From a virus: a stretch of 36,314 nt of DNA. Shown piece after piece: positions 5,194-22,145 of this stretch; position 1 is the first letter of the stretch; each line of letters begins with the position of its first letter. The translations under genes were made by a program, and so were the position numbers. The stretch is from positions 1 to 36,314 of IMG/VR virus record IMGVR_UViG_3300042691_017324. The stretch is one strand, 5' to 3'. A model generated the notes under the pieces. It saw only the letters and a program-made list of their open reading frames with translations, did not search any database and had not been told where the DNA came from.

Positions 5194-5206
5194 AATAATG
5201 GGTTAT

Positions 5207-6648: not shown

Positions 6649-6649
6649 A

Positions 6650-8070: not shown

Positions 8071-8665
8071 ATATTTCTAATTTACGGTTCTTTATCTTTC
8101 TTTTAAGAAGACTTATTCCTTTTTTGTGAAGATTCAAAACTGTTTGCGTTGTAACTCCGAGTTCTTCCGCAATGTTTTTCCACTTCACTTTATAATCAGA
8201 ATACTTCCTCTTGAAAACGTATGAAATTCTATCGTCAGAGACATCTGAAAATGCAGTTAAAATATTTTCTAAATTTACTTTAACAGGCTTTTTTCGATAA
8301 GCCTCCATTGAGATTTCAGAATCTATGATAGGGGAAATTTCCTCATTGTCAACAAAGAATTTGTTTTTCGTGTTCGAAATCCTGTTCAGGCAATGGAATC
8401 TAGCTTGGTTCGCGAGCCAAGTAGAAAACTTAACATTTTTATCAGCGTCGAAAGAAGACAATGAATTATAAAATACGAACATCTTATCAGATAAAATATC
8501 TTCACTTGATACTCCTGATCTCTTTAGTCCGTTCATATATCCATGACACACTTTATAATACAAGTTTTCGTGCCTTGAAACCAGTTCGCAAAATGCATCG
8601 TTGCAAGTTTCTTCGTTTATTAGCTTGATTAACTCTACGTCTGATAACTTATTTAAGTTTTTCAT
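8063..8665 (-). CDS. Sigma70-family (ECF-like) RNA polymerase sigma factor
   Basis: A 200-residue protein with two recognisable regions. SSEDILSDKMFVFYNSLSSF followed by KFSTWLANQARFHCLNRI (about 53-95) is sigma region 2, which binds core polymerase and the -10 element. VKWKNIAEELGVTTQTVLNLHKKG (about 159-183) is a region 4 helix-turn-helix for the -35. Region 1 and region 3 are absent or reduced, as in ECF-type and many phage sigma factors. It would redirect host RNA polymerase to a phage promoter class, probably later genes. It overlaps both neighbours by 4-8 bases, in the dNMP kinase operon. Confidence 0.83.
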   Translation of the reverse strand: MKNLNKLSDVELIKLINEETCNDAFCELVSRHENLYYKVCHGYMNGLKRSGVSSEDILSDKMFVFYNSLSSFDADKNVKFSTWLANQARFHCLNRISNTKNKFFVDNEEISPIIDSEISMEAYRKKPVKVNLENILTAFSDVSDDRISYVFKRKYSDYKVKWKNIAEELGVTTQTVLNLHKKGISLLKRKIKNRKLEIYE

Positions 8666-9282
8666 TTTAAATGTAAATCAAGGATGCACTGATTTACAAA
8701 TAAGTCAAGCACTTTAATATCAGAAACTTTGGGCCAAATTACATAGTAATCAGCATCTTCTCTAACTTTAGGATAATGAAACGATTCTTCTTCGTTTGGT
8801 GGCTGAACTTTTACGCCATTTTTTGGATTATAACATGAAACATCAATCAAGCGACCTTTTAAAACGTGCTTCAACCAAAATACTTCATCTTTAGAAAAAT
8901 AGTTATGACGTATATCGGTTATGCAAATGTATTGAGACTTAGATTCCAAGATCTTCTTAGTTATAATATCTGTCCAAAACTTTCCATACGATTCCAATCT
9001 CTTTTGCTTCGCAAAAAGAACGAGATCGTTTCTAACCAAGTCCTTCTCTTCTCGCGTACAATTCAAAATGTCAACATTGTATTTTTTAATAAGGTCTTCC
9101 CTTAGAAGAATTTTCAATTCATCTGCTAGGGCGAATCTTTCGAACGGTAGTTTCTGCGATAGCAGAGAGAAGAACGTATCCTTTCCACTACTGGCTACGC
9201 CAGACAATCCAAGGATTGTACGAGAACCGAGATTTGATTTATTAAGTTTTGACATGCAACCAACGCTGGAAAAGGAATCCAT
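8662..9282 (-). CDS. Deoxynucleoside monophosphate kinase-like P-loop protein
   Basis: A 206-residue P-loop kinase. The Walker A GVASSGKDT is at 28-36, an ALADELK lid/LID-proximal segment follows, and CITDIRHNYFSKDE near 119-132 resembles the T4 gp1/dNMP kinase family, which phosphorylates dNMPs to dNDPs. It fits with the reductase, dUTPase, ThyX and deaminase in the window. An in-frame ATG at 9255 is an alternative start; I kept 9282 because a promoter and an inverted repeat sit just upstream of it. Substrate specificity cannot be read. Confidence 0.78.
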   Translation of the reverse strand: MDSFSSVGCMSKLNKSNLGSRTILGLSGVASSGKDTFFSLLSQKLPFERFALADELKILLREDLIKKYNVDILNCTREEKDLVRNDLVLFAKQKRLESYGKFWTDIITKKILESKSQYICITDIRHNYFSKDEVFWLKHVLKGRLIDVSCYNPKNGVKVQPPNEEESFHYPKVREDADYYVIWPKVSDIKVLDLFVNQCILDLHLK

Positions 9283-9284
9283 CT

Positions 9285-9304
9285 CTAATATGTATTTATA
9301 TTAG
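9285..9304. repeat. Inverted repeat abutting the dNMP kinase start codon
   Basis: CTAATAT, six bases, ATATTAG: a perfect 7-base inverted repeat ending two bases before the ATG at 9282 on the minus strand. It also contains the TAATAT that serves as -10 in the promoter proposed at 9325-9298. It could be an operator or a hairpin near the start codon. In AT-rich DNA a 7-base match can be chance. Confidence 0.45.
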
Positions 9305-9325
9305 ATCATAAACGACATTATTCAA
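9298..9325 (-). promoter_or_regulatory. Sigma70-like promoter for the dNMP kinase-sigma operon
   Basis: On the minus strand TTGAAT (9325-9320), a 16-base spacer and TAATAT (9303-9298). The predicted start near 9291 gives a leader of about 9 bases before the ATG at 9282. The -10 hexamer is the same TAATAT seen at 5212 and 21427. The -35 matches 4 of 6. Confidence 0.5.
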
Positions 9326-9326
9326 G

Positions 9327-9608
9327 CCAAATCAGTTCTTCGCAACCTATTTCGTAGGCTTTCGACCCTATTTCGTAGAGCCTAGCTAATGACTTGAATA
9401 AATATTTACCGCCAAAATCCGATTGAACTTTTTTTATTGCTCGCCTCACCGACTAGGTGAGTCTATCGATCTCGTCTTACGAACGCCGCTTTTTCCCGAA
9501 ATAACGTTGAAGTTCTTAGCTTCACTTGATCGATGCCTTTCTACGGGCCTGATGTCTCTTACGGTTCACGCTGGATTCCCAGCAAGCTAGTAATCGGTTG
9601 TCGTGACC
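9327..9608 (-). ncRNA. Candidate structured non-coding RNA, about 280 bases, unknown class
   Basis: The 326 bases between the kinase and the next gene hold no convincing reading frame but many complementary segments. Visible pairings (plus-strand coordinates): 9602-9608 with 9563-9570 (7 pairs, one bulge), hairpin 9570-9574/9579-9583 with a 4-base loop, 9508-9512 with 9520-9524, 9465-9471 with 9528-9534 (7 pairs), hairpin 9445-9450/9456-9461 (6 pairs), and 9318-9326 with 9393-9401 (9 pairs). The GC content looks higher than in the flanking genes. Both neighbours are minus strand, so a minus transcript is assumed. It does not show RNase P, tmRNA or group I intron signatures that I could find. 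Possible weak promoter: TTGACA at 9634-9629 with TAAGGT at 9611-9606. Confidence 0.55.
9346..9378. repeat. Short tandem direct repeat inside the structured region
   Basis: The 12-mer CCTATTTCGTAG occurs at 9346-9357 and again at 9367-9378, each beside a TTCG-containing segment. The first copy can form its own CCTA/TAGG hairpin, or the pair can take part in a GGCT/AGCC helix at 9357-9362 and 9377-9382, so alternative folds are possible. Confidence 0.6.
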
Positions 9609-10031
9609 TTAGTCCTCCTTAGAAGATTTGTCAACCTCTTTTTTCAAAAAATCTAAAATGTGCAAAATGTTCCACAAATCCTTGGGTTTTAGCTCTTTTG
9701 GATCGCACGTTTCCGAGTCGTCCTTGATGACTTCTTGGCAGAACCAATTTACTCTGTCCGCGATATTGCAAGCAAGTGCGCCATTAATTTTAATATCTTG
9801 CTCCATCTGCTCCAACTTTCTATTTAAAAAATAAATCTTCTCTCCGTCAGGATTAGATTCGCAAGCTACAAAATTTTCAGACAATAAATTATTCAACGCG
9901 CAAACAACTGGGTATTTGTCGTTGTCATCCTCATGGATAACCAAAAGTTTATTTAAATCCTTCGGGTAATTAAAATAATCGTTTTCAGAAAACCAGTTAA
10001 TTAGTTTTAAAGATGCTTCTAAAGTAGTCAT
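9609..10031 (-). CDS. Hypothetical protein, possible winged-helix fold
   Basis: A 140-residue protein, not recognised. Residues 1-75 (a helical start, YFNYPKDLNKLL, ALNNLLSENFVAC, then a short hairpin EKIYFLNR) have the order of a winged helix, and the rest is helical with an acidic/lysine C-terminus. It is the first minus-strand gene at the divergent junction, with its ATG 9 bases from the ATG of the plus-strand gene. A regulator would be a natural occupant of that position, but this is only a suggestion. Confidence 0.62.
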   Translation of the reverse strand: MTTLEASLKLINWFSENDYFNYPKDLNKLLVIHEDDNDKYPVVCALNNLLSENFVACESNPDGEKIYFLNRKLEQMEQDIKINGALACNIADRVNWFCQEVIKDDSETCDPKELKPKDLWNILHILDFLKKEVDKSSKED

Positions 10032-10034
10032 AAT
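10006..10034 (+). promoter_or_regulatory. Candidate promoter at the divergent junction
   Basis: TTTAAA (10006-10011), a 17-base spacer and CATAAT (10029-10034), lying inside the start of the minus-strand gene. The predicted start, position 10041, is the A of the plus-strand ATG, giving a leaderless message. Each box matches consensus at 4 of 6 and 5 of 6. No good minus-strand promoter was seen on the other side. Confidence 0.4.
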
Positions 10035-10040
10035 AGTAAA

Positions 10041-10358
10041 ATGAATTTAATATTGATATCTATAGTTATCGGTTATTTAACTTTTATCTGGTTAAAAACA
10101 AACGCTATATACGATTATACAAGCTGGATATTAAAGAAGACTAATATTTTTAAAGAATACGAAGACTTTATTGAACAAAAACAAATGAATTTAAGTTTGC
10201 CTGATTATTTATTATTAAAGAAGAAATCTTTCTTTTTTAAATTAATCACATGCCCTATATGCTGCTCGTTTTGGATGAGCATGATATATTACAGGTCAAT
10301 CGAAGGAGTTTGCGCCGCATGTTTTTCTTATTTAATTTATAAACTTTTAATTAAATGA
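10041..10358 (+). CDS. Small membrane protein with CPxC motif (DUF1360-like)
   Basis: A 105-residue protein with an N-terminal membrane segment (about 2-17), a charged middle region and a second hydrophobic stretch containing ITCPICCSFWMSMI (about 69-82) followed by a third (about 88-103). The TCPxC-FW motif resembles the DUF1360-type small membrane proteins found in phages and bacteria. Function unknown; it could be lysis- or envelope-related. First gene of the rightward transcription unit; it overlaps the next gene by 4 bases. Confidence 0.68.
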   Translation: MNLILISIVIGYLTFIWLKTNAIYDYTSWILKKTNIFKEYEDFIEQKQMNLSLPDYLLLKKKSFFFKLITCPICCSFWMSMIYYRSIEGVCAACFSYLIYKLLIK

Positions 10359-10642
10359 AAATTAAATTAGACTATTTTTTTAATTTCGTAAAGAATAATC
10401 CAGCACACTTTTCAGTGTTAGACCCTGAGATTGCAAAACTATACGACATGAACATATCATCATGCAATTGTGCAACTCCAAAAGGGCAACTAACAACAGC
10501 ATTTGAACAATTCAAAAAAGTGCTATGTATTGAAAATTGTAGGAACAAAATTCTTGACAAATCAAAGGAGTTATTAGATGATTCTATACAGATAGAAGAT
10601 TTCAGTGTAAATACTTGTGGTGAAAACTTTCAAAATAAATAA
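10355..10642 (+). CDS. Hypothetical small protein with clustered cysteines
   Basis: A 95-residue protein, not recognised. Cysteines at about 37, 39, 58 and 62 (SSCNCATP and VLCIENCRNK) could bind a metal. A further one lies near the C-terminus. Start overlaps the previous stop (ATGA). Confidence 0.6.
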   Translation: MKIKLDYFFNFVKNNPAHFSVLDPEIAKLYDMNISSCNCATPKGQLTTAFEQFKKVLCIENCRNKILDKSKELLDDSIQIEDFSVNTCGENFQNK

Positions 10643-10649
10643 TTTAAAA

Positions 10650-10802
10650 ATGAAAGTAACTGGTCAGAAGCTTGTCATTTATGATTCTTTAAATGACGTT
10701 TCTGACGAAGAAGTTTTATTAATTGCCAATTATCTTTACAACGAAGGATTCTTTAAAACCAAAAAAATAGATGTACGAGTCCAAGGTGATAGAAAAAATT
10801 AA
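10650..10802 (+). CDS. Hypothetical protein, 50 residues
   Basis: Starts at an ATG eight bases after the previous stop. A GTG at 10617 in the same frame would add 11 residues and overlap that gene. Short alpha/beta protein with an acidic helix (NDVSDEEVLLIANYLYNEG) and a basic end. No known family. The end overlaps the next gene by 32 bases, so one of the two starts may be wrong. Confidence 0.45.
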   Translation: MKVTGQKLVIYDSLNDVSDEEVLLIANYLYNEGFFKTKKIDVRVQGDRKN

Positions 10803-10986
10803 TTATTTCTACGAAGAATTAGATAGCTTAAATCAAAGCTTAGATTGGCTAGAGAAAAAAATAGAAGTAACAACTTCTGAAGAAGATTTATTATATTTAT
10901 ATACTCAAGTAGTAGAAGAACAAAAAAAGCATGAACTGTTAACTAGAGAATTTATGGCACACTTAGCCATATTGTCTCAGCAGTGA
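10771..10986 (+). CDS. Hypothetical coiled-coil protein
   Basis: A 71-residue, almost entirely helical protein rich in Glu, Leu and Lys, with heptad-like spacing through most of its length (INYFYEELDSLNQSLDWLEK and later). No known family. It may be a small oligomeric adaptor. Confidence 0.58.
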   Translation: MYESKVIEKINYFYEELDSLNQSLDWLEKKIEVTTSEEDLLYLYTQVVEEQKKHELLTREFMAHLAILSQQ

Positions 10987-11082
10987 GTCAGATAGTCTCA
11001 AATAAAGCGTCTAAATATGAAATATAACCATGAAAAAGTTGGCATGAATCTTGCTATAGAAATAAATAACAAGGAAAACAAT

Positions 11083-11394
11083 ATGGTATTAAATTATTAT
11101 TACGACGCAACAAAAAACTACTACTTCAAACAAGATGGATCAGACTATGTAGTCTCCATTGATGTGCCGGGAATTAAAAAATCAGAATTATCAATCACGA
11201 TAAATAAAGAAGAACAAGATAATCTTCTGTCTATTAAAACGCAAAATAAAGACAGAGATTACAGTCAAAATTTTAGAGTGTCTGGCAAGTTTGATGAAAA
11301 ATCAGTGAAGGCATCACTTTCTGAAGGAGTATTAAAAATAAAAATGAAGCTGAAAGAGGAAGCTTCAACGAAACATAAAATAGAAATTGAATAA
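11083..11394 (+). CDS. Hsp20 / alpha-crystallin-type small heat-shock protein
   Basis: Translated from 11083 it has 103 residues; an ATG at 11017 would add 22 residues of low-complexity sequence. I prefer 11083 because AAGGA lies 7 bases upstream of it, while 11017 has no ribosome-binding site. The alpha-crystallin domain is clear: YVVSIDVPGIKKSELSITI opens it and LSEGVLKIKMKLKE is the conserved G-V/I-L closing strand. Small heat-shock proteins hold unfolding proteins; homologues occur in several T4-like phages and may help virion assembly. An intrinsic terminator follows directly. Confidence 0.87.
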   Translation: MVLNYYYDATKNYYFKQDGSDYVVSIDVPGIKKSELSITINKEEQDNLLSIKTQNKDRDYSQNFRVSGKFDEKSVKASLSEGVLKIKMKLKEEASTKHKIEIE

Positions 11395-11401
11395 AAAATA
11401 A

Positions 11402-11425
11402 CCCTCGCCAAACGGCGGGGGTTTT
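11402..11425 (+). terminator. Intrinsic terminator after hsp20
   Basis: CCCTCGCC, AAAC loop, GGCGGGGG (8 pairs with one G-U), then TTTT. It begins 7 bases after the Hsp20 stop and ends the first rightward unit. Confidence 0.88.
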
Positions 11426-11439
11426 GTGTAATATTTTGT

Positions 11440-11655
11440 ATGCCTATTCCTAAACCGTCAAAGAAAAACCAAAACGAAGACAAGTATATTGGCGACTGTA
11501 TGGGGGATTCAAGTATGTTAAAAGAATTCCCCAATCAGAAGCAAAGATATGCTGTATGCAAAACTACTTTTGATCGCGCCAAGAAAGCTAAAGCTTCAGA
11601 AGATGAAGATATAAATTGGGTTGACAATCAAGAAAAGGGTTATATATTGTATTGA
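11440..11655 (+). CDS. Conserved small phage protein (PKPSK ... FPNQKQRYAVC type)
   Basis: A 71-residue protein. The opening MPIPKPSKKNQNEDKYIGDCM and the FPNQKQRYAVC segment belong to a small protein commonly found in phage genomes near capsid or protease genes. Function unknown. The end overlaps the HNH gene by 4 bases. A TAATAT hexamer 5 bases before the ATG could be a -10 for a leaderless message, without a good -35. Confidence 0.7.
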   Translation: MPIPKPSKKNQNEDKYIGDCMGDSSMLKEFPNQKQRYAVCKTTFDRAKKAKASEDEDINWVDNQEKGYILY

Positions 11656-12269
11656 TGCTGCTTACGAGCAAAGTCTTTACTCTGTGCCTTAATAAAAGCT
11701 GGATTCCCATCGGGACAAAGTGCGTTTCTGAAGCAGTATCTTGCCTGTATTCAGGAGATTATCAAGCGCTTTATATTCAAGAAAACGGTAACGAACCGAT
11801 CTTCGAAGTTTTATCTTGGGAAGATTGGGTGAGAATTCCTGTCTCTGAAAATGACATAACTATCTCATCTGTAAAACTCACCATCAAAGTTCCTACAATT
11901 ATTATTTGTAAAAATTACAATGCAATTCCTATGCTTGAAGTTAAGCTGAACAGCGATAGGATTGCAGAGAGAGATAATTATACTTGTCAATATTCTGGGC
12001 GCAAATTTACTCCAGAAGAAGTCAAAAAGAAAGCTTCAATTGATCACATTATTCCAAGATCAAGAGGAGGAAAAGATTCTTGGGATAATTTAGTTCTTTG
12101 CGATAAAGAAATTAATTCAATGAAGTCTAATAAGACTCCAGAAGAAGCGGGGCTTAAATTAATTAGAAAGCCTTCTTTAAAGCCGTACAAAGTTCCATAT
12201 CAATCTTCTATTAGAAATATTAACCATTACTCATGGAAGCATTTTATAATAGAAAAGAATGAACAATAA
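11652..12269 (+). CDS. HNH endonuclease-family protein
   Basis: A 205-residue protein. The HNH core runs from RDNYTCQYSGRKF (107-119) to IDHIIPRSRGGKDSWDNLVLC (130-150, with D131-H132 and N146) and the closing NSMKSNKTPEEAGL. These nucleases bind one metal in a beta-beta-alpha fold and cut DNA. The first structural CxxC pair is C112-x-x-S115, so one zinc ligand is replaced. N-terminal 100 residues form a separate beta-rich domain typical of this family. It may be a homing-type or host-attacking nuclease; no intron is evident next to it. Confidence 0.85.
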   Translation: MMLLTSKVFTLCLNKSWIPIGTKCVSEAVSCLYSGDYQALYIQENGNEPIFEVLSWEDWVRIPVSENDITISSVKLTIKVPTIIICKNYNAIPMLEVKLNSDRIAERDNYTCQYSGRKFTPEEVKKKASIDHIIPRSRGGKDSWDNLVLCDKEINSMKSNKTPEEAGLKLIRKPSLKPYKVPYQSSIRNINHYSWKHFIIEKNEQ

Positions 12270-12552
12270 ATCTCAAGAGAGATCCCATAAGCAAATAATG
12301 AAGTGCGTCAAAGAGCTTTCAGAAAGTTACGACACAGTTCAGATTTTTTTAACAAGACACGTTGATGTAAGTAAAAATATTGAAGATACTGAATCTCTTT
12401 ATTTTGGGATAGGAAATAAATTTGCAATTTACGGCCAAGTTAGAAATTGGTTGTTGACAGAAGAGAAAAAGATGCTAAACATAGCTGACCTAGAATTCGA
12501 CTCTGAATTTGGAGGAGAAGACGAGGACGACGGAACAGAAGAAAAAGAATAA
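12259..12552 (+). CDS. Hypothetical protein with acidic C-terminus
   Basis: A 97-residue protein, not recognised. Mostly helical, with a C-terminal run dominated by Glu and Asp (from about residue 80). It overlaps the HNH gene by 11 bases and ends 1 base before the dUTPase start. It could be a partner protein or a DNA mimic, but nothing specific supports this. Confidence 0.6.
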   Translation: MNNKSQERSHKQIMKCVKELSESYDTVQIFLTRHVDVSKNIEDTESLYFGIGNKFAIYGQVRNWLLTEEKKMLNIADLEFDSEFGGEDEDDGTEEKE

Positions 12553-12553
12553 T

Positions 12554-12979
12554 ATGAACATTCAAATTAAGAAATTGTCTGATAAAGCTAAGATTCCAAC
12601 TCAAGGATCAAAGTATGCTGCTGGTTATGATTTGTATGCAGCAGAAGAAGTTCTTGTAAATACAATGGGAAGAAAGTTGGTAAAAACCAATATTTCTATT
12701 TCAATTCCTGAAGGATATTATGGGCGCATTGCTCCTCGTTCAGGTCTAGCTTATAAGAATGGAATCGATGTTTTGGCTGGAGTTATCGATTCTGATTATC
12801 GCGGCGATATTGGAGTTATTCTTTTTAATACAGATCATAATCTTGATTTTGAAGTTAATGTTGGCGACAGAATCGCGCAAATTATTATTGAAAAGTGTCA
12901 TTCTGCAAATTGGGAAACTGTTGAGACTCTTGATGCCACCGTTCGATCTGAAGGTGGATTTGGAAGCTCAGGAGTTTAA
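12554..12979 (+). CDS. dut: dUTPase
   Basis: Trimeric-type dUTP diphosphatase of 141 residues, which hydrolyses dUTP to dUMP, keeping uracil out of DNA and feeding ThyX. All five motifs are visible: AAGYDLYAAE (I), IAPRSGLA (II), GVIDSDYRGDIGV (III), VGDRIAQIII (IV) and RSEGGFGSSG at the C-terminus (V). The start at 12554 is chosen because it gives the normal length; an in-frame ATG at 12509 would overlap the previous gene. Confidence 0.96.
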   Translation: MNIQIKKLSDKAKIPTQGSKYAAGYDLYAAEEVLVNTMGRKLVKTNISISIPEGYYGRIAPRSGLAYKNGIDVLAGVIDSDYRGDIGVILFNTDHNLDFEVNVGDRIAQIIIEKCHSANWETVETLDATVRSEGGFGSSGV

Positions 12980-12982
12980 AAT

Positions 12983-13525
12983 ATGTCAAGGCATGCTAAT
13001 CTTCCATTTCATCTTTACGTCAAAGTAAGCAATAAATATCTTGGCGCGGAAATGCCAGATGGTTATACAGAAGCTATTTGGCACGGAGTTTTTGGAAGAT
13101 TTAATCAGGTTTTATCCTGCCATGTCTTGTTAGAAAGTGGAGCGCATTGGAGCGGCTTGCCAATTCAAGCAATATCTACAAAAAATAATTATTCTCATTC
13201 TTCTAACATTTTAATGCCTTGGGCAACTATGGGAGAAGAAATAGACTGCATTCATTTTAAATACTTAGAAGGTATTGAGTGCGAAACTAGAGAAGTAATA
13301 AAAACTCCAGCTAGACATACAGGAATAATCATAGACTGGAAAGATGGTTTTAGTAGATATCCGCAAGAACACAAGCCGCTCAATTTGATTGAATTAGAAA
13401 ATGGTCAATTTGCTTTATACCCAAATAACTATCTTTATTTCAAAGACGCTCATTTTATTTCAGATGAAGCTAAAAGTAATTTAAAATTTTACAAGCGAAA
13501 CGAAGAAATATACTGGGGAAATTAA
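12983..13525 (+). CDS. Hypothetical phage protein
   Basis: A 180-residue protein of mixed alpha/beta character with many His and Trp residues (for example AIWHGVFGRFNQVLSCHVLLESGAHW split over 35-60). No transmembrane segment or signal. GGAG lies 9 bases before the ATG, one of the clearer ribosome-binding sites here. I recognise no domain. Confidence 0.7.
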   Translation: MSRHANLPFHLYVKVSNKYLGAEMPDGYTEAIWHGVFGRFNQVLSCHVLLESGAHWSGLPIQAISTKNNYSHSSNILMPWATMGEEIDCIHFKYLEGIECETREVIKTPARHTGIIIDWKDGFSRYPQEHKPLNLIELENGQFALYPNNYLYFKDAHFISDEAKSNLKFYKRNEEIYWGN

Positions 13526-13526
13526 A

Positions 13527-13910
13527 ATGCTTAGAATAAAAACAAAATTAGATAAAAGCCAAATCGCTGGAATTGGAGTTTTCACTGACGAAGATATTCA
13601 TGAAGGACAAATTATATGGAGTATGAATAATCTTTCTGTCTTTAGAATAACTTCCGAAGATTATAAATCTCTTTCCGAAGAAGAAAAAAATTTTATAGAA
13701 GAAAAAGATTACTATTGGATCGACAGCGATGGAAGCTATATGATTCCATTAGATGACAGCAGATTTATAAATCATTCTGAAAGTCCAAATGTTATAGATA
13801 AAAATGATTATTTAACTATTGCAGCTAGAAATATTAAAAAAGGCGAAGAGTTAACTATGAATTATAGGACATTAGTTAGTGAAGAATATTGGAAACCTTA
13901 TTTTAAATGA
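13527..13910 (+). CDS. SET-domain protein (putative lysine methyltransferase)
   Basis: A 127-residue protein with the SET hallmarks: GIGVFTDEDIHEGQIIW (15-31), RFINHSESPNV (79-89, the RFINHS-x-x-PN motif that binds S-adenosylmethionine) and the closing GEELTMNY (106-113). SET enzymes methylate protein lysines and are mostly eukaryotic, but stand-alone ones occur in bacteria and large viruses. No pre- or post-SET zinc cysteines are present. The possible target is a host or phage protein. It overlaps the dCMP deaminase start by 4 bases. Confidence 0.87.
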   Translation: MLRIKTKLDKSQIAGIGVFTDEDIHEGQIIWSMNNLSVFRITSEDYKSLSEEEKNFIEEKDYYWIDSDGSYMIPLDDSRFINHSESPNVIDKNDYLTIAARNIKKGEELTMNYRTLVSEEYWKPYFK

Positions 13911-14407
13911 GACTTAATAAAATTGAATATGGTTTTTATCTTGCTCTTGCGTCTAGGGCAAGATCTGAAGATCGTCAAACTCAGACAGGATGCGTACTTT
14001 TTGATGAAAACTGGCGCACAATTGGCACTGGTTTCAACGGATTCGCGCCAAAATTCGTTCCAACCGAAGATGTTTTTGAAGATCGCTCTTTCAAATCTGA
14101 AATTATTTGTCACGCAGAAATTAATGCTATTCTTAATAGCTCAAAAAACGCTAAGTATTTATTTTCAGTATTAAGTCCATGCGTATCTTGCGCCAAAACA
14201 ATTGCCGCCACATCAATCAAAGAAGTTTATTTTATTAAACAATATCATAAAGCTGGCGCAGAAGCTGACATGAAGTACGCCAAAATCTTTGATTTATATG
14301 GAATAAAAGTTTTTCAAATTTCTAAAGATAGTCTTTCAAATATAGAAAAAGTAATGAAACAAGAAGTAGAAAATATTAAAAATTTATCTTTGGATCTTGA
14401 GTATTAA
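13907..14407 (+). CDS. Deoxycytidylate (dCMP) deaminase family protein
   Basis: A 166-residue zinc deaminase. The zinc site is H69-A-E71 and P91-C-V-S-C95, with QTGCVLFDENWRTIGTGFNGF earlier forming the nucleotide-binding strand. dCMP deaminase makes dUMP, the substrate of thymidylate synthase, so it works with the dUTPase next to it and ThyX at 31853. Substrate (dCMP rather than another cytidine) is inferred from length and neighbours. Confidence 0.9.
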   Translation: MRLNKIEYGFYLALASRARSEDRQTQTGCVLFDENWRTIGTGFNGFAPKFVPTEDVFEDRSFKSEIICHAEINAILNSSKNAKYLFSVLSPCVSCAKTIAATSIKEVYFIKQYHKAGAEADMKYAKIFDLYGIKVFQISKDSLSNIEKVMKQEVENIKNLSLDLEY

Positions 14408-14422
14408 AACGTAATATATTAC

Positions 14423-14707
14423 ATGAAGGATCAAAGGAAAGATGATTCGCTTCTTAACCTTTGTAAGGTACTAGATACTGATTACATAGATTATGGAGGC
14501 AAAATCACTCGTTGGCTTGATCCTGATGCTGACTACAATGACTGTAGCGACGGGTGTAAGTATTTTATTCCTTTACACAATGAGTCGTATAAAGGAGCAG
14601 ATTTGGATTTCGGAGTATGCACAAATCCAAAAAGTAAAAGGTGCGGATTGCTTACAAATGAACATCAAGCAGGATATGGATGTTTTGAAATAGAAAAATT
14701 AAAATAG
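14423..14707 (+). CDS. Cysteine-rich hypothetical protein
   Basis: A 94-residue protein. After a helical start it carries DCSDGCKYFIPL (about 37-48), GVCTNPKSKRCGLL (about 66-79) and a final GCFE, a spacing suggestive of a zinc-binding domain like DUF3027-type proteins. TAATAT lies 5 bases before the ATG within the palindrome GTAATATATTAC. The function is unknown. It directly precedes the tRNA genes. Confidence 0.64.
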   Translation: MKDQRKDDSLLNLCKVLDTDYIDYGGKITRWLDPDADYNDCSDGCKYFIPLHNESYKGADLDFGVCTNPKSKRCGLLTNEHQAGYGCFEIEKLK

Positions 14708-14712
14708 ATTTT

Positions 14713-14786
14713 GAGAGTATAGCTTAATGGTAAAGCGCGATTTTTCCAAATTCGACATGGATGTTCGATTCAACCTACTCTCTCCA
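14713..14786 (+). tRNA. tRNA-Gly (anticodon UCC)
   Basis: 74 bases fold into a cloverleaf: acceptor GAGAGTA (14713-14719) with TACTCTC (14776-14782), D-stem GCTT/AAGC, anticodon stem CGATT/ATTCG with one T-T mismatch and loop TTTCCAA (anticodon TCC), T-loop TTCGATT with one A-A mismatch in its stem, discriminator T and an encoded CCA. It reads GGA, a frequent glycine codon in these genes. Confidence 0.92.
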
Positions 14787-14813
14787 TCTTCTAAAAATAA
14801 ACATCTAATTTAT

Positions 14814-14889
14814 TGGGGGTTCGTATAATGGATCATTACTGTCGCCTTTGAAGCGATAAATGGGGTTTCGATCACCTCACCCCCAACCA
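14814..14889 (+). tRNA. tRNA-Gln (anticodon UUG)
   Basis: 76 bases: acceptor TGGGGGT (14814-14820) with ACCCCCA (14879-14885), D-stem GTAT/TTAC, anticodon stem GTCGC/GCGAT with loop CTTTGAA (anticodon TTG), T-stem GGGGT/ACCTC with loop TTCGATC, discriminator A and encoded CCA. It reads CAA. Only 27 bases separate it from tRNA-Gly, so the two are probably processed from one transcript. Confidence 0.93.
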
Positions 14890-14897
14890 ATTTTAAA

Positions 14898-15092
14898 ATG
14901 CAAGAACACGAAATTATACTAAAAGAACTAATTGAAAAGCTGAAAACAGTTGATGTAAATAAGACCGCTCCATACCTAGTCAAAGAAATAGATAAACACG
15001 TTCAAGAAGCTTACTCTCAAATTTATAAAGCTAGAGAGCAAAAAACAGTGTATAATCCTCTAGTTTATGATAAAAAAGGACACTGCTGCTAA
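14898..15092 (+). CDS. Hypothetical helical protein
   Basis: A 64-residue protein starting 8 bases after tRNA-Gln. Mostly helical and charged, ending GHCC. No family recognised. The end overlaps the DUF1289-like gene by 26 bases. Confidence 0.52.
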   Translation: MQEHEIILKELIEKLKTVDVNKTAPYLVKEIDKHVQEAYSQIYKAREQKTVYNPLVYDKKGHCC

Positions 15093-15255
15093 AATATCCA
15101 CGCCATGTACAAAGCAATGCCGTTTAGTAGGAGCAATTAGATGTTATGGATGCGGAAGAACTTGGCAGCAAATTAAAAACTGGTCATTCTACTCTGAAGA
15201 AGAACGTATTGAAATAATAAAAAATTTGAAAAAGCCAGTTTTCGACGATATATAA
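15067..15255 (+). CDS. DUF1289-like small zinc-binding protein
   Basis: A 62-residue protein with the DUF1289 pattern: PCTKQCRLVGAIRCYGCGRT (13-32, four cysteines) followed by IKNWSFYSEEERIEII. Family members are small bacterial proteins, probably zinc-binding, of unknown biochemical role. The ATG overlaps the previous gene, in which the frame ends at 15092. Confidence 0.78.
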   Translation: MIKKDTAAKISTPCTKQCRLVGAIRCYGCGRTWQQIKNWSFYSEEERIEIIKNLKKPVFDDI

Positions 15256-15260
15256 AATAT

Positions 15261-15395
15261 ATGTCAGCAGGTAAAGGCGATAAACCCAGAAATTGTTTTA
15301 GTAGTAAATATAAAAATAATTACGACGACATAAATTGGGGTGATAAAAATAAGACTTTAAAAAAGAAGAAAAATTCTAATAATAAAGTCAAATGA
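15261..15395 (+). CDS. Small phage protein, MSAGKGDKPR type
   Basis: A 44-residue basic protein beginning MSAGKGDKPRNCFS, then YKNNYDDINWG and a lysine-rich end. Short proteins with this opening recur in many phage genomes; their function is unknown. Start is 5 bases after the previous stop and the stop overlaps the cytochrome start as ATGA, which supports it being translated. Confidence 0.66.
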   Translation: MSAGKGDKPRNCFSSKYKNNYDDINWGDKNKTLKKKKNSNNKVK

Positions 15396-16750
15396 AGAAT
15401 CTTTCAATTATTTTTATCTCACTTCTTGTAGCTTTTACAGCTATAAGCATTAAAGCCAAAAGTCAATCTAAAGCTCAAACTAAGTTTCCAGACTTCGGCT
15501 TTATGGTTCCGCCCAGCGAAGTCACAAATGTTAATGAAGTTTTTAAACTAAGTCAGGATTACCCGAAGAGCCTTCCAAAGAACAAGCTTCCTAAATTTTA
15601 CAGCATAGATTATAAAACTAATTGGCGCGAATATCTACTTTCTGTACGAGATTACTGTTTTGAAGGAAATACAAATGTAGATTTTCGAGTTGAGAATAAT
15701 AAGGCTCGAAATTGGTATCACATGCCTTTCCAACATTATTCTGCAAATGGCCGAGAAGGGTTTCACGGATTAACCAAGGAAGCGCCAGTTAAGGCGCATC
15801 AACTCGCTATTTCGCAAGAATACGCCACATCTGGCGCGTGGGCAGTAGGCTTCTTTAATGACGTAGCTGGATATACAATTGGTCAAGTTTGGGCTGATCA
15901 TGAAAACCCAGATGTCACCCTTATGAAGGGAGGATTTAAACATGGTGCAGTATTGTTTAAGCTATTGTTTACTTCTATTCCAAAAGACGTAGCTGAAGCC
16001 ACAGTTCCATTTTTCCGCAACGGAATTTGGTGGGACGCTTATGCAACATATAATTTTAATAGTTCAGACCGTTCAAAAATTCAAGTTGTATTAACCCAAA
16101 TGGACATTATGGTTCGTGATGATAATGCTCCTAACGGTTGGGTATTTGGCAATTTCCAATATAATGGCGCAGTAAATAATCCTATTAAGTGGAATAATCT
16201 AGTTCCAGTAGGTTTGATGTGGGGCCAAGATCCTACAAATAATGTAGATTTCTCTAATCCATATCCAACAAACACGATTATTAATACAGCTTTGAAGGAA
16301 ACTATTATTAATCCTGATAGAAACGAGCTTCCTCCTACGCATCTTGGCTGGAATGGTCGTTTAAATGGCCCTCTTGATAACTCTATGAGTTCTTGTTATA
16401 GCTGCCATTCAACGGCTGAATATCCTCAAGGATCTCCTATCAGTCCATTGTTTGATCCAGTTCTTTCTAAGAAATATCCCCCCGGCAGCGATGGTTGGAT
16501 GCTTTGGTTTAGAAATCTAAAGTGCGCTCAGTCTTTTGATAAGTCAACTTACGCTAAACCTCATTATTCAACTGACTTCTGTTTACAAATGTCAGAAGCT
16601 CTTGAGAATTTCGTAAATTGGAAAGCTGCACAAGGCGGTCTTTATCGCAAGGATTATGATAAATCTTCAAATAATTTCCTTGAACTTCGAAATGGAGAGA
16701 TTAACCTTAGAGAAGGTAAGATCTACCCTGTAGATCGTCGAAATAAATGA
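15392..16750 (+). CDS. Secreted c-type cytochrome-like protein
   Basis: A 452-residue protein. The N-terminus is a signal peptide (lysine, then a hydrophobic core to about residue 22), so export to the periplasm is expected. A single covalent haem-binding motif C335-Y-S-C338-H339 sits in SMSSCYSCHSTAEYP. The long N-terminal part is beta-rich with many aromatic residues (NWYHMPFQHY, GIWWDAYATYNF) and resembles a bacterial secreted cytochrome family of unknown role. Haem attachment would depend on the host cytochrome c maturation system. A cytochrome is very unusual in a phage. It overlaps its neighbours by 4 bases on each side, so it is embedded in the phage transcription unit and not an assembly join. 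Confidence 0.82.
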   Translation: MKNLSIIFISLLVAFTAISIKAKSQSKAQTKFPDFGFMVPPSEVTNVNEVFKLSQDYPKSLPKNKLPKFYSIDYKTNWREYLLSVRDYCFEGNTNVDFRVENNKARNWYHMPFQHYSANGREGFHGLTKEAPVKAHQLAISQEYATSGAWAVGFFNDVAGYTIGQVWADHENPDVTLMKGGFKHGAVLFKLLFTSIPKDVAEATVPFFRNGIWWDAYATYNFNSSDRSKIQVVLTQMDIMVRDDNAPNGWVFGNFQYNGAVNNPIKWNNLVPVGLMWGQDPTNNVDFSNPYPTNTIINTALKETIINPDRNELPPTHLGWNGRLNGPLDNSMSSCYSCHSTAEYPQGSPISPLFDPVLSKKYPPGSDGWMLWFRNLKCAQSFDKSTYAKPHYSTDFCLQMSEALENFVNWKAAQGGLYRKDYDKSSNNFLELRNGEINLREGKIYPVDRRNK

Positions 16751-17289
16751 AAGACAAAGACGGATATCTCCTAGTCGAAAAAGAGTTTACTCTTCGCGGT
16801 TATAAATTTAAATTCATCAAGCAATTAAAAAATGATTGGTGCATTTATGAGAAAATCAAAAAAGAAGAAGCAGGAGTAAAAAGCAGAACCAAGCACATTC
16901 ATAAAAAGTATGAGCTTGTAAAATTACGGCGGCAAGAATCTTATGTATTTAATGATAAGAAGATTGAAGCTAAATGGCTGTATCCAAGCGATAACGCTTT
17001 TGGAAAACTTGGTTTTGACTGCATTTCTTTAGATGCGGCGCAAAATCGATACGAAGAAATCGTTAAAGCTGGAGAGAAAAAAGAAATAGAAGAAGAGCTT
17101 AAGAATGAAGAAGTAAGAATTCCTACAAAGGATTTTACTATCAAAGACTTTATTAAAGCTAATCCAAAGCTAAATTATTCAATAGCTTATCAAAAGATTA
17201 AGGAATTAATCTCAAATAAGGGCATTAGACTCGCAGGAGAAAAGAAAAATAAACGAGGTAAAGCTAGTAATCTTTATAAAAAGGTGTAA
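16747..17289 (+). CDS. Hypothetical protein with C-terminal helix-turn-helix-like region
   Basis: A 180-residue basic protein. The N-terminal part is beta-rich. The C-terminal part (about 128-180: FTIKDFIKANPKLNYSIAYQ, then a basic wing GKASNLYKKV) looks like a winged-helix domain. Function unknown; DNA binding is a reasonable guess. Overlaps the cytochrome gene by 4 bases. Confidence 0.66.
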   Translation: MKDKDGYLLVEKEFTLRGYKFKFIKQLKNDWCIYEKIKKEEAGVKSRTKHIHKKYELVKLRRQESYVFNDKKIEAKWLYPSDNAFGKLGFDCISLDAAQNRYEEIVKAGEKKEIEEELKNEEVRIPTKDFTIKDFIKANPKLNYSIAYQKIKELISNKGIRLAGEKKNKRGKASNLYKKV

Positions 17290-17298
17290 TAAAAGACT

Positions 17299-17547
17299 AT
17301 GGAAGAATACATAGGAGATATTAAATTATTCGCAGGAACTTATTGTCCACAATACTTTATGTACTGCGATGGTCAAACATTACAAATTCAATACAATCAA
17401 GCGTTATTTGCTGTTATTGGATTTCAATATGGAGGAGACAATAAAACATTATTTGCTCTTCCTAATTTAAATAAAAACCCGATTATACAAGGCACAAGTT
17501 TGAAATATATAATTTGTACAGAGGGAATTTTCCCAACTAGACCATAA
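17299..17547 (+). CDS. Minimal phage tail-collar (microcystin-dependent-protein type) domain
   Basis: An 82-residue protein. IGDIKLFAGTYCPQYFMYCDGQ, then NQALFAVIGFQYGGDNKTLFALPNL and the closing YIICTEGIFPTRP are the tail-collar/Mdp landmarks. The usual central segment between LPDLRGR and the final YII strand is nearly absent, so the domain is about half the normal Mdp length (about 170-180). It may be a small tail-fibre or receptor-binding piece, or a free collar domain. A strong terminator follows within 11 bases. Confidence 0.83.
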   Translation: MEEYIGDIKLFAGTYCPQYFMYCDGQTLQIQYNQALFAVIGFQYGGDNKTLFALPNLNKNPIIQGTSLKYIICTEGIFPTRP

Positions 17548-17557
17548 TAAAAACAAC

Positions 17558-17582
17558 AAGCCGCCGAAAGGCGGCTTTTTTT
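17558..17582 (+). terminator. Intrinsic terminator after the tail-collar gene
   Basis: AAGCCGCC, GAAA tetraloop, GGCGGCTT followed by a run of T. A perfect 8-pair stem. It separates the collar gene from the lipoprotein-cyclase island. Confidence 0.93.
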
Positions 17583-17596
17583 GTGTAAATAAAGAT

Positions 17597-18556
17597 ATGA
17601 ATTTTAAAAAAATTTTTGCCGTATTTTGTTTATTTTTATTTACAGGATGCTTTTCTACAATAAAGCCAGCAAAACAAATTGACGACAATCAAAAAATTAT
17701 TGCCAAAGAAGAGAAGAAGGTAGACAACACTCTTGTAGAAATAGAAAAAAACGACAAAGGTAAGAAAATACAAACCTCTGGTCTTTCTATTGGTATTCAG
17801 CATTCTTTAAATCAAGTTACTAATGCTCCTGTACAAGTAGACACGGCGTTAAAATTGAATGAAAGAGTTATTTCTATTGTAGGTTCACCTCATATAGATG
17901 AAACAAAAAGAATTAAAGCTACAGTAGATTTATTAAATTCTGCTTTAGTTGAAGAGCGTAAGAAAGGCGAAGAACTTCTCGCTCAACGTGACGATTTAAT
18001 TAATAAACTTCAAAAAGAAAAATCAGAGCTTAATCAAAAATATGATGACCAACTCTGGCAATTAACCGACAAAGCTAAAGAAGTCGCCAAAGAAGCTGAC
18101 CAAAACAAAGCTGTATTAGATTCAATGAGCGGAATGTTCGGATTAAACGCCGTGTTTTGGGGCTTAAAGAAGTTTGTTGTTAGTGCATTAACTACAATAG
18201 TAGTATTTGTTATAGTATTTGTTCTTCTTCGTTTATTGGCTACGGTTCATCCCGCTGCCGCCGCCGCATTCTCAATATTTAACATGTTGGGATCTGCAAT
18301 AATATCTATTCTTAAAGCTCTTACTCCCAAAGCTTTTGAAATGTGTGATTTCGCAACAAAAGAAAAAGTTGATGAATTTAAATCTCCTCTTGTTAAAATT
18401 ATAGATGTTATTCAAGAACTAAAAGAAAAACAAAAAGAATCTCCTGATAGAGTATATCCATTAAATGAATTACTAAAACGTTTCGAGAAAGAAATGGATA
18501 GTGATGAAAAAGATTTAATAGATGATATATTAAGAGAACAAAAGTGGATCAAATAA
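17597..18556 (+). CDS. Coiled-coil lipoprotein with membrane segments
   Basis: A 319-residue protein. A short signal ends in FTG-C18, a lipobox with Phe at -3. A disordered, charged linker leads to a coiled coil (about 102-172, EERKKGEELLAQRDDLINKL). TM segment 194-215 and a hydrophobic Ala-rich stretch 219-240 follow, then a charged C-terminal region of about 80 residues. A lipid anchor plus a downstream membrane segment linked by a coiled coil recalls unimolecular spanins, which fuse inner and outer membranes at lysis, but the tail after the membrane segments is too long for a classic one. First gene of the island, and a scaffold or sensor role is equally possible. Confidence 0.75.
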   Translation: MNFKKIFAVFCLFLFTGCFSTIKPAKQIDDNQKIIAKEEKKVDNTLVEIEKNDKGKKIQTSGLSIGIQHSLNQVTNAPVQVDTALKLNERVISIVGSPHIDETKRIKATVDLLNSALVEERKKGEELLAQRDDLINKLQKEKSELNQKYDDQLWQLTDKAKEVAKEADQNKAVLDSMSGMFGLNAVFWGLKKFVVSALTTIVVFVIVFVLLRLLATVHPAAAAAFSIFNMLGSAIISILKALTPKAFEMCDFATKEKVDEFKSPLVKIIDVIQELKEKQKESPDRVYPLNELLKRFEKEMDSDEKDLIDDILREQKWIK

Positions 18557-18640: not shown

Positions 18641-19021
18641 ATGAACACAAACGACGTTAATATTATATCGCAACAAGCATTAGAATCAACTGGTCAAGAT
18701 TTGACTGGTAAATATGTTTGGTTATTTATTATTGGACTTATAGCGTTAATGTTTAAGTCTAGTATTGAAAAGTTTGCGGCAGCTTTGTTTATGTTTGTTG
18801 GAAATGATTATAAAGAAGACGATGTTGTTTATGTAGATGGTAAACCCGGAAGAATAGTAAGAGTAGGTCTTACAAAGACTGTTTTCTTTATATACGATGT
18901 GGTTGACGGAAAAGTTTTGGGCGGCAGCAAGTTAGTTGTCCAAAACGAAAGACTAGCCTCATTAAATATTGAAAAGCCTCTTGCCAACTTAGATCTTAGC
19001 AGATTTAAGAAACAAGATTAA
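18641..19021 (+). CDS. MscS-like mini-channel / small-conductance mechanosensitive channel domain
   Basis: A 126-residue protein. One membrane helix (about 23-40, KYVWLFIIGLIALMFKS) and an amphipathic second helix (41-54) precede a beta domain: YKEDDVVYVDGKPGRIVRVG (57-76), then GSKLVVQNERLASLNI (95-110), which matches the MscS beta-domain order (D-x-V-x-V-x-G, then I-V-P-N-S-x-L). MscS channels open on membrane tension; this is far shorter than E. coli MscS (286), with only the pore-lining region and the middle domain. Overlap with the cyclase gene is absent but the gap is one base, suggesting cotranslation. Confidence 0.77.
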   Translation: MNTNDVNIISQQALESTGQDLTGKYVWLFIIGLIALMFKSSIEKFAAALFMFVGNDYKEDDVVYVDGKPGRIVRVGLTKTVFFIYDVVDGKVLGGSKLVVQNERLASLNIEKPLANLDLSRFKKQD

Positions 19022-19022
19022 A

Positions 19023-20774
19023 ATGGCAATTAATATTTTCACTCACATACGACGCAATTTATATGATAATGTCTATAACTGCATAGTTAAAGACAAAGTA
19101 AATATAAATGAAAGAGATGAGGACACTGGAAATCCTCCTCTCATAGTTGCTGTATCGGAGAATAATAAAGAGATTGTTGAATTATTATTGAATCACGGCG
19201 CGGATGTTAATTGTAAAGATTGGACAAGTAAAAATACAGCACTTGATATAGCAGAGCAAAAAGGTTTTTTATCTATTGTCGATGTTCTTCAAAAGCGTGG
19301 TGCAAAATATGGCAGCGGAAGTAGCTTTCATTTGGCGGCTAAAAATGGCGACATAGTTTCAGTAGAAGAAATGCTGAATAAAGGCCATACTTTAAATGAA
19401 GTTGACGCTGCAAAAGGTTGGACCGCAATGCATTATGCAGTTCATTATGGACAAAAACATTTAGTTGAATATTTAATACTTAGAGGCGCTGATGTTAATT
19501 CTAAAGACTTCTTAGGTAAAAATAATCCAATAGATGTATTAGCTTTAGGCAATAGAGGAGAAATCGTAAGAATATTAACCAAATCTGGCGCAAAATCTTC
19601 TGGTGGTTCAAGCATTCATTTTTGTGCAGAAACTGGTGATTTTGAAGGTGTACAGAAATATTTTGACATTGATGGTCGTATAAACGGTAGAGACGAAAAG
19701 AATGGATGGATGCCTATCCATTATGCCGTTAACGCTAACGATATTGAGATGGTTGAATTCTTAATCTGTTTAGGAGCCAACGTTAATGGCGCGGATTTTA
19801 AAGGTGAAGTTGCGCCATTAGATTTAGCTTTTAAAACTGGTAATATTAAAATGCAAACACTGCTTCAATCAAAAGGGGCAGCTAGAAAGAAAAAAATAGA
19901 TAATGGAGGCGGCGGCAAAGACGTTACAATCCATATCAGTGAAGAATTTAAAAAACAAATGCAAGCTTATATTGATAAAAGAAATCAAGAAGAAGCTGTT
20001 TTAAAAAAGATACATGAAGAAGAAGTCTCAAAAGATCCAAAGAAAAAAGATAAAAAGACTATTAACTGGAAAGAATTTTTAAAAAGTAAAAATAAGCCTG
20101 TCGAAGAAAAGAAGGTCGAAGAAGTTAAGAAAATTGAAGCTCCAAAACCTCCTAAGAAAATAATAAATCAAGTTGCGGTGATTGATGCTGAAGTTAAATC
20201 TAGTCGTCTTGAATTGGATAAAATACAAGATGGCTATATTTTTTTCATGGACATAGTTGGATATAGTAAAAAAACTACTGACGAGCAAAGAAAATGTTTT
20301 AAAGATCTAGGCGAAATAGTTAAATCAACTATACAATTTAAAACAGCTAATGCTCTTGAAAAATTAATCGTTCTTCCAACAGGTGACGGAATGATTCTTG
20401 GATTCTTCACTTACCTTGAAGACGCTATCAATTGTGGCATCACTGTTGCAAAAGTAGTTAAAAATAGACCAGATTTAGAAATGAGAATGGGCATTCATTG
20501 CGGCGACGTTTGCCCACTAGAAGATATAAATGGTAATTTAAATATTAGCGGCGATGGAATTAATTACGCTCAAAGAGTAATGGATGCTGGAGAAACTAAT
20601 CATTTATTAGTTAGCTCTGACGTTATGGCTAAATATGACAGACCAAATTATGTATTAGTTGAAGATCTTGGCGATGTAATAGTCAAGCACGGAGTTATTA
20701 TGCGATTGTATAGTTTGTATTCATCTGATTTTGGAAATAAAAATTTTCCGAATTCAAGAGTAAAAAAAGTGTAA
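19023..20774 (+). CDS. Ankyrin-repeat / class III nucleotidyl cyclase fusion
   Basis: A 583-residue protein in three parts. Residues 12-288 hold about seven ankyrin repeats (for example NPPLIVAVSENNKEIVELLL, WTAMHYAVHYGQKHLVEYLI). Residues 290-395 are a charged Lys/Glu linker. Residues 403-568 are a class III adenylate/guanylate cyclase domain: metal-binding D410 (FFMDIVGYSK) and D455 (LPTGDGMILGF), GIHCGD at 490-495, and the transition-state N514-x3-R518 (GDGINYAQRV). At the purine-selecting position four residues before D455 is Leu rather than the Lys typical of adenylyl cyclases, so the nucleotide made cannot be predicted. The catalytic set looks intact. No kinase, receptor or cyclic-nucleotide-binding partner is adjacent. 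Confidence 0.88.
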   Translation: MAINIFTHIRRNLYDNVYNCIVKDKVNINERDEDTGNPPLIVAVSENNKEIVELLLNHGADVNCKDWTSKNTALDIAEQKGFLSIVDVLQKRGAKYGSGSSFHLAAKNGDIVSVEEMLNKGHTLNEVDAAKGWTAMHYAVHYGQKHLVEYLILRGADVNSKDFLGKNNPIDVLALGNRGEIVRILTKSGAKSSGGSSIHFCAETGDFEGVQKYFDIDGRINGRDEKNGWMPIHYAVNANDIEMVEFLICLGANVNGADFKGEVAPLDLAFKTGNIKMQTLLQSKGAARKKKIDNGGGGKDVTIHISEEFKKQMQAYIDKRNQEEAVLKKIHEEEVSKDPKKKDKKTINWKEFLKSKNKPVEEKKVEEVKKIEAPKPPKKIINQVAVIDAEVKSSRLELDKIQDGYIFFMDIVGYSKKTTDEQRKCFKDLGEIVKSTIQFKTANALEKLIVLPTGDGMILGFFTYLEDAINCGITVAKVVKNRPDLEMRMGIHCGDVCPLEDINGNLNISGDGINYAQRVMDAGETNHLLVSSDVMAKYDRPNYVLVEDLGDVIVKHGVIMRLYSLYSSDFGNKNFPNSRVKKV

Positions 20775-20790
20775 GTTAAAAGTATCTTTT

Positions 20791-21408
20791 ATGACAAACG
20801 TCGTTACAGAAATTTCAAATACGCTTAATTCTATAGGGAATTTTTTCACTATGGCAAACGCGACAATTGCAGCATTAATTATTTTTACCGGATACTTAAT
20901 AAGTTTCAGCAAGAAAATTAAACCATATATTTCAGTAAAAGATGATATTGCTTCATTAAAAGTAGACCTCGCTAAAATATCAAGTGAATTTAAAACAAAT
21001 GGCGGCAAAAGCTTAAAAGATCAAATAAACGATTTACAAACATCTACAAAAACCATTCTTTATAGACAAAGATGGATACTTGATAACAGAGAAGAGCCGA
21101 TATTTGAAACAGATGAACATGGAAATTTTACATGGGTAAACGATGCATTTGCAAGATTAACAGATAGACCGTTCAGAGATTTACAAAATAATAACTGGAT
21201 TAATTGTTTAAAAGAAGACACAAGGGAAGAAATCACTGTTAGTTGGAATGTAGCGATGGAAAATAAAAGAACTTTCGAGCATATATTATTTGTAGTTGAT
21301 AGTAAAAATAGAGTTTTTTCTACAAAATGCATTGCTTCTCGTCAAGAAGATGGAAAATATATAGGAAGTTTTACGAACGTAGAGAAAATCGTTGAAAAAA
21401 AATCTTGA
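20791..21408 (+). CDS. Membrane-anchored PAS-domain sensor
   Basis: A 205-residue protein: membrane helix about 22-40, a coiled-coil-like linker 50-92, and a PAS domain from about 98 to the end (EEPIFETDEHGNFTWVNDAF, TDRPFRDLQNNNWINCLKED, ending GKYIGSFTNVEKI). There is no kinase, cyclase or HTH output, so it must act through a partner. It starts 16 bases after the cyclase stop. Topology with PAS inside the cell is likely, since the loop after the helix is lysine-rich. Ligand unknown. Confidence 0.83.
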   Translation: MTNVVTEISNTLNSIGNFFTMANATIAALIIFTGYLISFSKKIKPYISVKDDIASLKVDLAKISSEFKTNGGKSLKDQINDLQTSTKTILYRQRWILDNREEPIFETDEHGNFTWVNDAFARLTDRPFRDLQNNNWINCLKEDTREEITVSWNVAMENKRTFEHILFVVDSKNRVFSTKCIASRQEDGKYIGSFTNVEKIVEKKS

Positions 21409-21440: not shown

Positions 21441-22145
21441 ATGATTAAGTATATTAATATTATTATCGCAACCCTTATGGCTTCAGTCGCAGTTTTCGCT
21501 GCGGATACTGAATCACCTGTTAACGCCAGCATTAACGCTGGTTATAACAACCATTATATTGTGAATGGTTTGGCAAAAACTGGCGGACAAGGTTTCGCTG
21601 GTTTCAATATTGGATCGACATATTTTGGTGTCGATGGTTATGTCGGCGGCGTTATTCTTCCAGACGCTAATAACATTGATGAATCCCACTGGAATGTTGG
21701 TGTAGGCAAGGCTTTGAAGGTTACCGAGAAGTTCTCGCTTCGCGGAGATTTGCAAGTTCTTCGTCATCAAAGTTCAATCGTAGGAGGCCGCAATTCAATC
21801 GAAATAGCTCCAAAGATTGCTTTGGTAAATCCATATCTAACTCCATATATTCGCGGTTCTCATGATTTCAATCTAAAGCAATCAGGATATATTGTTGGCG
21901 TTGAACGTCCTACCGACGTATTTGGTTGGGTTACTGTCACCCCATCAGTTGAGTATGGCAAGTTCACTGATTATGATGTTGTGGCTGCTAAGATTGGCGT
22001 GTCACGCACCTTCTTCAATCATCTAACTCCTTATGCTGAAGTTGGCTGGTACGACAACAACTTCTCAGCTTCAAAGTACAAGTTCGCTTCTCAAGAGTTT
22101 AGCGGCGATATCGTCGCTACTGCTGGAGTTCGTTGGAACTTCTAA
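21441..22145 (+). CDS. Secreted outer-membrane beta-barrel-type protein
   Basis: A 234-residue protein. A Sec signal ends AVFA (residue 20) before ADTES. The mature protein is built of alternating amphipathic strands rich in Gly, Tyr and aromatic residues (YFGVDGYVGGVILP, LTPYIRGSHDFNLKQSGYIVGV) and ends GVRWNF, the terminal aromatic expected for outer-membrane insertion. Its own promoter lies just upstream and a terminator just after. Phage-encoded outer-membrane proteins can change the host surface, for example to block superinfection. Base composition is higher in GC than the neighbouring signalling genes by eye. Confidence 0.82.
   Translation: MIKYINIIIATLMASVAVFAADTESPVNASINAGYNNHYIVNGLAKTGGQGFAGFNIGSTYFGVDGYVGGVILPDANNIDESHWNVGVGKALKVTEKFSLRGDLQVLRHQSSIVGGRNSIEIAPKIALVNPYLTPYIRGSHDFNLKQSGYIVGVERPTDVFGWVTVTPSVEYGKFTDYDVVAAKIGVSRTFFNHLTPYAEVGWYDNNFSASKYKFASQEFSGDIVATAGVRWNF

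Follow-up and report, generated by a model that had tools for sequence, protein, structure and literature searches.

We report here that a large uncultured T4-like phage carries, within a tightly packed gene unit, a gene for a predicted mono-haem c-type protein. Judged from its sequence and predicted structure, this protein belongs to the cytochrome P460/c'-beta superfamily as a long variant not yet characterised. We call it a variant rather than a standard P460 because its size is roughly threefold that of the known P460s. Our confidence in the P460-superfamily identity of the protein, taken together with the status of its gene as phage cargo, is high. The P460 fold family and phage auxiliary genes are known already; what is new is that a phage carries a long cytochrome of the P460 type as cargo, and in the open-access literature that we searched no phage-borne P460 was found. 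The gene lies in a window of 36,314 nucleotides (the whole stretch of DNA that was analysed), which comes from an IMG/VR virus record (Table 1).

Table 1. The cytochrome gene, its predicted functional sites and the surrounding genes, in window coordinates
Feature	Coordinates	Strand	Remarks
tRNA-Gly and tRNA-Gln genes	14713..14889	+	just upstream
DUF1289 gene, left edge of variable cargo slot	15067..15255	+	Pfam E 2.3e-13; conserved in L095
Lysine-rich small ORF, 44 aa	15261..15395	+	counterpart in L001; ATGA overlap with cytochrome start
Predicted exported P460-superfamily cytochrome c, long variant	15392..16750	+	452 aa, ATG start
Signal-peptide-like N-terminus, about aa 1-25	15392..15466	+	from sequence; low-confidence model helix 3-19
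K190 codon	15959..15961	+	aligns with haem-crosslinking Lys K78 of M. capsulatus P460
D238 codon	16103..16105	+	aligns with distal carboxylate Asp102 of M. capsulatus P460
CYSCH haem c attachment motif, aa 335-339	16394..16408	+	
Phage gene of unknown function	16747..17289	+	single viral relative found
Phage tail collar domain protein	17299..17547	+	Pfam PF07484, E 1.1e-19
Intrinsic-terminator-like hairpin with T-run, end of unit	17558..17577	+	3' of tail-collar gene
Lipoprotein/TM gene, phage-group marker, right edge of cargo slot	17597..18556	+	

The cytochrome gene is intact and looks like a working gene. Its start overlaps the stop of the 44-aa ORF (15261..15395) and its stop overlaps the start of the following gene (16747..17289), each time by the 4 nt ATGA, in agreement with an earlier note on this DNA that had described overlaps with genes on both sides. 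The 44-aa ORF was missed by an ORF list with a 60-aa cut-off, which left an apparent 136-bp gap after position 15255. The signal peptide and the one CxxCH site (335-339) claimed in the same note were both found as described in ORF 15392..16750: the N-terminus, MKNLSIIFISLLVAFTAISIKAKSQS, is hydrophobic and signal-peptide-like by sequence, the AlphaFold2 model places a helix at residues 3-19 followed by a linker of low confidence, and the only CxxCH of the 452-aa protein reads C335-Y-S-C338-H339. The lipobox cysteine is absent from the phage N-terminus, a feature in which several Bacteroidota relatives differ. That the reading frame is beyond chance follows from a copy with 87% identity on the contig of locus L001, syntenic across about 25 window genes, from the dN/dS of 0.089 between these two copies (dS 0.93, dN 0.08), which indicates that the protein is under purifying selection, and from the existence of a bacterial long-form family with more than 200 members.

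Compared alone with Pfam, the cytochrome protein gave one weak match, to Cytochrome_P460 (PF16694; 20.9 bits against a curated cut-off of 27, E 4.9e-4). The same profile was matched by 31 of the 45 family members, with a best E of 1.3e-9, and an hhalign comparison of the 45-row family profile with 13 canonical P460s yielded E 9.6e-6; a search of the window record with the PF16694 profile returned nothing above threshold. A generic class I cytochrome c was rejected because no Pfam cytochrome c family was matched. The earlier description of the product as c-type cytochrome-like stands as regards a c-type haem protein and can be narrowed to the P460/c'-beta superfamily.

The hhalign alignment pairs K190 of the phage protein (in HGAVLFK) with the haem-crosslinking lysine, and D238 (in TQMDIM) with the distal carboxylate (Glu96 or Asp102), of the hydroxylamine-oxidising P460. 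The canonical counterparts are K78 (in GAILVK) and D102 (in TQADFM), in a chain numbering derived from the top sequence of the canonical set, a near-identical match to M. capsulatus P460; in that protein, K78 forms the crosslink and D102 is the carboxylate that accepts protons in the enzyme oxidising hydroxylamine (PMC11928373, Table 2). K190, D238, C335, C338 and H339 are identical in all 45 family sequences, and residue 150 (W150 in the phage protein) is aromatic (Y, W or F) in every one of them, its equivalence to Arg50, at the distal capping position that holds Phe or Arg in hydroxylamine-oxidising P460s, being drawn by eye only.

When the AlphaFold2 model of the cytochrome (mean pLDDT 89.7) was compared with the PDB using VIA-align, the top 17 entries were all P460 or cytochrome c'-beta structures, with Z from 5.8 to 7.1 and the next entry at 3.8; most of each small target was aligned, and a Z of about 7 is modest. 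Foldseek ranked a c'-beta and a P460 first and second, without any E below 0.001, and a BFVD fold search gave no match. Sequence searches of the PDB produced no match for the single protein, a borderline P460 match (9hrk, E 1.2) for query set A1 and only noise for query set A2. The top structural match, c'-beta of T. thermophilus at Z 7.1, ties with the P460s to within 1, and the shared fold would also suit a c'-beta-like protein that binds NO, CO or O2 without P460 chemistry. However, c'-beta lacks the crosslink lysine and the distal carboxylate (PMC11928373), both of which are predicted to be present, and are invariant, in the phage family; the c'-beta trait of a hydrophobic residue replacing the crosslink lysine is absent here, with lysine in 45/45 sequences. 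We regard a purely gas-binding role as quite unlikely.

The T4-like character of the carrier emerges from contigs that share the lipoprotein/TM gene at 17597. This gene marks 14 IMG/VR contigs, one of which, 230 kb in length, contains a T4-type Gp23 capsid gene and a large terminase. The Gp23 gene of this relative is split over both contig ends, suggesting a permuted or circular map, and its capsid protein has about 34% identity to T4-like cyanophages and no close named relative. In the same contig (G007), the terminase ORF (L133 295-2262) opens with what, by eye, resembles the final part of a LAGLIDADG-type intein, with the junction ...THN/TTLM near the Walker motif. The ribonucleotide reductase encoded in the window is nearest to those of an uncultured Manatee Spring phage and Maribacter phage Panino. 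Shine-Dalgarno-like tetramers precede 5 of 60 genes, against 3.9 expected by chance, and the upstream regions are A-rich. Few Shine-Dalgarno motifs and A-rich upstream regions are usual in Bacteroidota, so that a host from this phylum is likely.

The cytochrome gene is rare among viruses, as the earlier note had surmised: no homologue was detected in 50,697 GenBank phage records, and two profile-guided scans of IMG/VR gave at most three further loci, a pattern-based count that divergent copies may escape. Positions 1-18000 of the window had no near DNA match among GenBank phages, and canonical short P460s were not found in viral contigs with the single pattern used, a weak test. Besides the L001 copy, a related phage contig (L002) carries a copy with 72% identity, placed elsewhere, with homologues of the window genes at 32503 and at 35499 on either side; directly before the ATG of that copy lies a hairpin with a T-run resembling an intrinsic terminator (L002 7960-8001), and no obvious promoter is seen between them. 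A further copy, with 43% identity, occurs in L012 (IMGVR_UViG_3300041955_001975, 114 kb, called viral). We did not count this contig as phage evidence because it has no large terminase by phrog_2, the copy stands beside an MFS-like transporter gene (and an AIPR-like gene, by eye), and its place in the tree is near Acidobacteria and Variovorax; the contig may be a plasmid or an integrated element.

In the phylogenetic tree, the three phage cytochromes form one clade (SH-aLRT 97), which is sister to two Chitinophagaceae chromosomal genes (SH-aLRT 99) with 63-64% identity; Spirosoma and another Bacteroidota sequence are placed next to this group. The phage gene apparently derives from a Chitinophagaceae-like bacterium, and the difference in GC3 between the phage gene (0.29) and the Chitinophagaceae gene L013 (0.63) implies that the transfer was not recent. 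Given that the nearest non-phage relatives are chromosomal, bacterial contamination or a chimeric assembly has to be considered. However, three separate IMG/VR contigs carry the gene, two of them with shared synteny, the ATGA overlaps tie it to phage ORFs, and its GC3 is phage-like, so that such an artefact is extremely improbable. The independent phage contigs with the gene in phage context also answer the concern, raised earlier, that it might be bacterial sequence not joined to the phage.

The gene occupies a variable slot, which we bounded by the DUF1289 gene or the tRNAs on the left and by the lipoprotein gene on the right. This slot holds a 436-aa structural-looking protein in L095 and an FkbM-like methyltransferase (by eye) in L093, and L101 is without such cargo. 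The cytochrome is carried by 2 of the 14 marker-sharing contigs (those with L001 and L002), a lower bound because these contigs are fragments. The patchy presence and the differing slot contents identify the gene as accessory cargo (moron/AMG), which a T4-like phage lineage would have acquired and kept between conserved phage genes.

Export of the protein, together with the structural-looking occupant of the slot in L095, would fit a receptor decoy or a surface protein for superinfection exclusion whose haem binding is incidental. However, the phage cytochrome is conserved with bacterial redox relatives along its whole length, including all predicted active-site residues, and neither sequence nor fold shows anything like surface display or receptor mimicry. 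Finding no support for it, we rejected the decoy role, which appears highly unlikely. The receptor-related decoy proposed in the earlier note is thus unsupported, the relatives being ordinary bacterial redox genes; its view of the product as a c-type haem protein, probably exported and encoded in a phage operon, was right.

Elsewhere in the window, positions 13527-13910 encode a SET-domain protein (Pfam E 2.4e-15), unusual in a phage, and positions 19023-20774 encode a fusion of ankyrin repeats with a domain resembling class III nucleotide cyclases (Guanylate_cyc, 23.1 bits against a cut-off of 21.9), with 81-95% identity in related phages. The latter gene is flanked by those for a small protein that weakly matches the MscS beta-domain (18641-19021) and for a membrane-anchored PAS protein (20791-21408), and the three (18641-21408) could form a phage signalling module. 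Two further products are an exported 234-aa protein (21441-22145), beta-barrel-like by eye as in outer-membrane proteins, with a weak OmpO match and conserved in relatives, and one that bears the N-methylation motif of type IV pilins (29574-29990).

Known P460s oxidise NH2OH to NO/N2O, and the known members of the P460/c'-beta superfamily are not electron shuttles but act on small nitrogen species, by catalysis or by binding. The role that we tentatively favour for the phage protein is that of a periplasmic enzyme in the infected cell whose haem would oxidise or capture small reactive compounds (hydroxylamine, NO, peroxide). Under this model, the cytochrome would be exported to the periplasm, receive its haem through the host cytochrome c maturation system, form a Lys-haem crosslink autocatalytically and react with its substrate where the haem is open, D238 serving as a proton relay; such chemistry would ease nitrosative or oxidative stress during phage replication. 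We judge this role and electron acceptance to be about equally possible, neither of them reaching the level of probable, with the remainder falling to other roles. That an active, Lys-crosslinked P460 would convert hydroxylamine or NO (to N2O or NO), or a comparable molecule, in the periplasm of infected Bacteroidota is unlikely.

As an electron-transfer subunit, the protein would be the acceptor for electrons released by oxidoreductases of the periplasm, with the phage-encoded version replacing or boosting a host acceptor. Bacterial gene neighbourhoods speak for this possibility: a molybdenum hydroxylase, a single chain of about 1,500 aa with [2Fe-2S], FAD and molybdopterin, is encoded near the long-form cytochrome in 13 of 80 bacterial loci (raw count), mostly directly adjacent, and GMC oxidoreductases are found nearby in 4 of the 80. 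The hydroxylase gene adjoins that of the cytochrome in L049, L051-L054, L059, L063, L069, L070, L073 and L074, from several phyla, and no report of this pairing was found in the literature searched. However, no such partner is encoded among the window ORFs, the molybdenum-hydroxylase loci fall mainly in another family clade than the phage copies, the Chitinophagaceae relatives closest to the phage copies adjoin a DNase II gene, and canonical P460s have very low potentials (PMC11928373). DNase II family genes are seen near the cytochrome gene in the Bacteroidota loci L013, L014, L046 and L049.

Taken together, these results add to the virus-carried repertoire a P460-type haem protein, which would be unusual among the redox proteins that viruses bring to their hosts, and point to a broad, unstudied long P460-like family, present in many bacterial phyla, in which the predicted catalytic Lys and Asp are invariant. 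The phage copy provides a single gene for testing the function of this whole family. If the protein is active, the virus could equip infected Bacteroidota for chemistry on nitrogen oxides or peroxide; should it be a Lys-crosslinked enzyme, this would amount to viral control of periplasmic reactive-nitrogen chemistry, through a haem type not known from viruses.

Among known systems, the viral nitrogen-cycle auxiliary genes norB, nirK and amoC (PMC8115048) are likewise virus-borne redox or nitrogen genes of bacterial origin; however, that set includes no P460 cytochrome, and the term P460 is absent from PMC8115048. The canonical P460s (M. capsulatus 6hiu/9hrk; Nitrosomonas europaea 2je2/2je3), mostly proteobacterial as far as known (PMC11928373), resemble the phage protein in fold (VIA-align Z 5.8-6.8), in the single CxxCH after the beta-sandwich and in the aligned crosslink-Lys and distal-carboxylate positions. 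They comprise about 140-200 aa, whereas the phage protein, at 452 aa, has large extra segments and is found without a nitrification context. Cytochrome c'-beta (T. thermophilus 7ead, M. capsulatus 6hih) is alike in fold and in the position of CxxCH but its Lys site is occupied by Phe or Met and the distal carboxylate is missing, in contrast to the invariant Lys and Asp of the phage family. The long bacterial P460-like proteins, named as cytochrome P460 family or hypothetical proteins (for example Variovorax WP_162590200.1, Chitinophagaceae L013/L014), are full-length homologues with about 37-64% identity, which differ from the phage protein in being chromosomal or plasmid-borne and in that several of the Bacteroidota copies look like lipoproteins.
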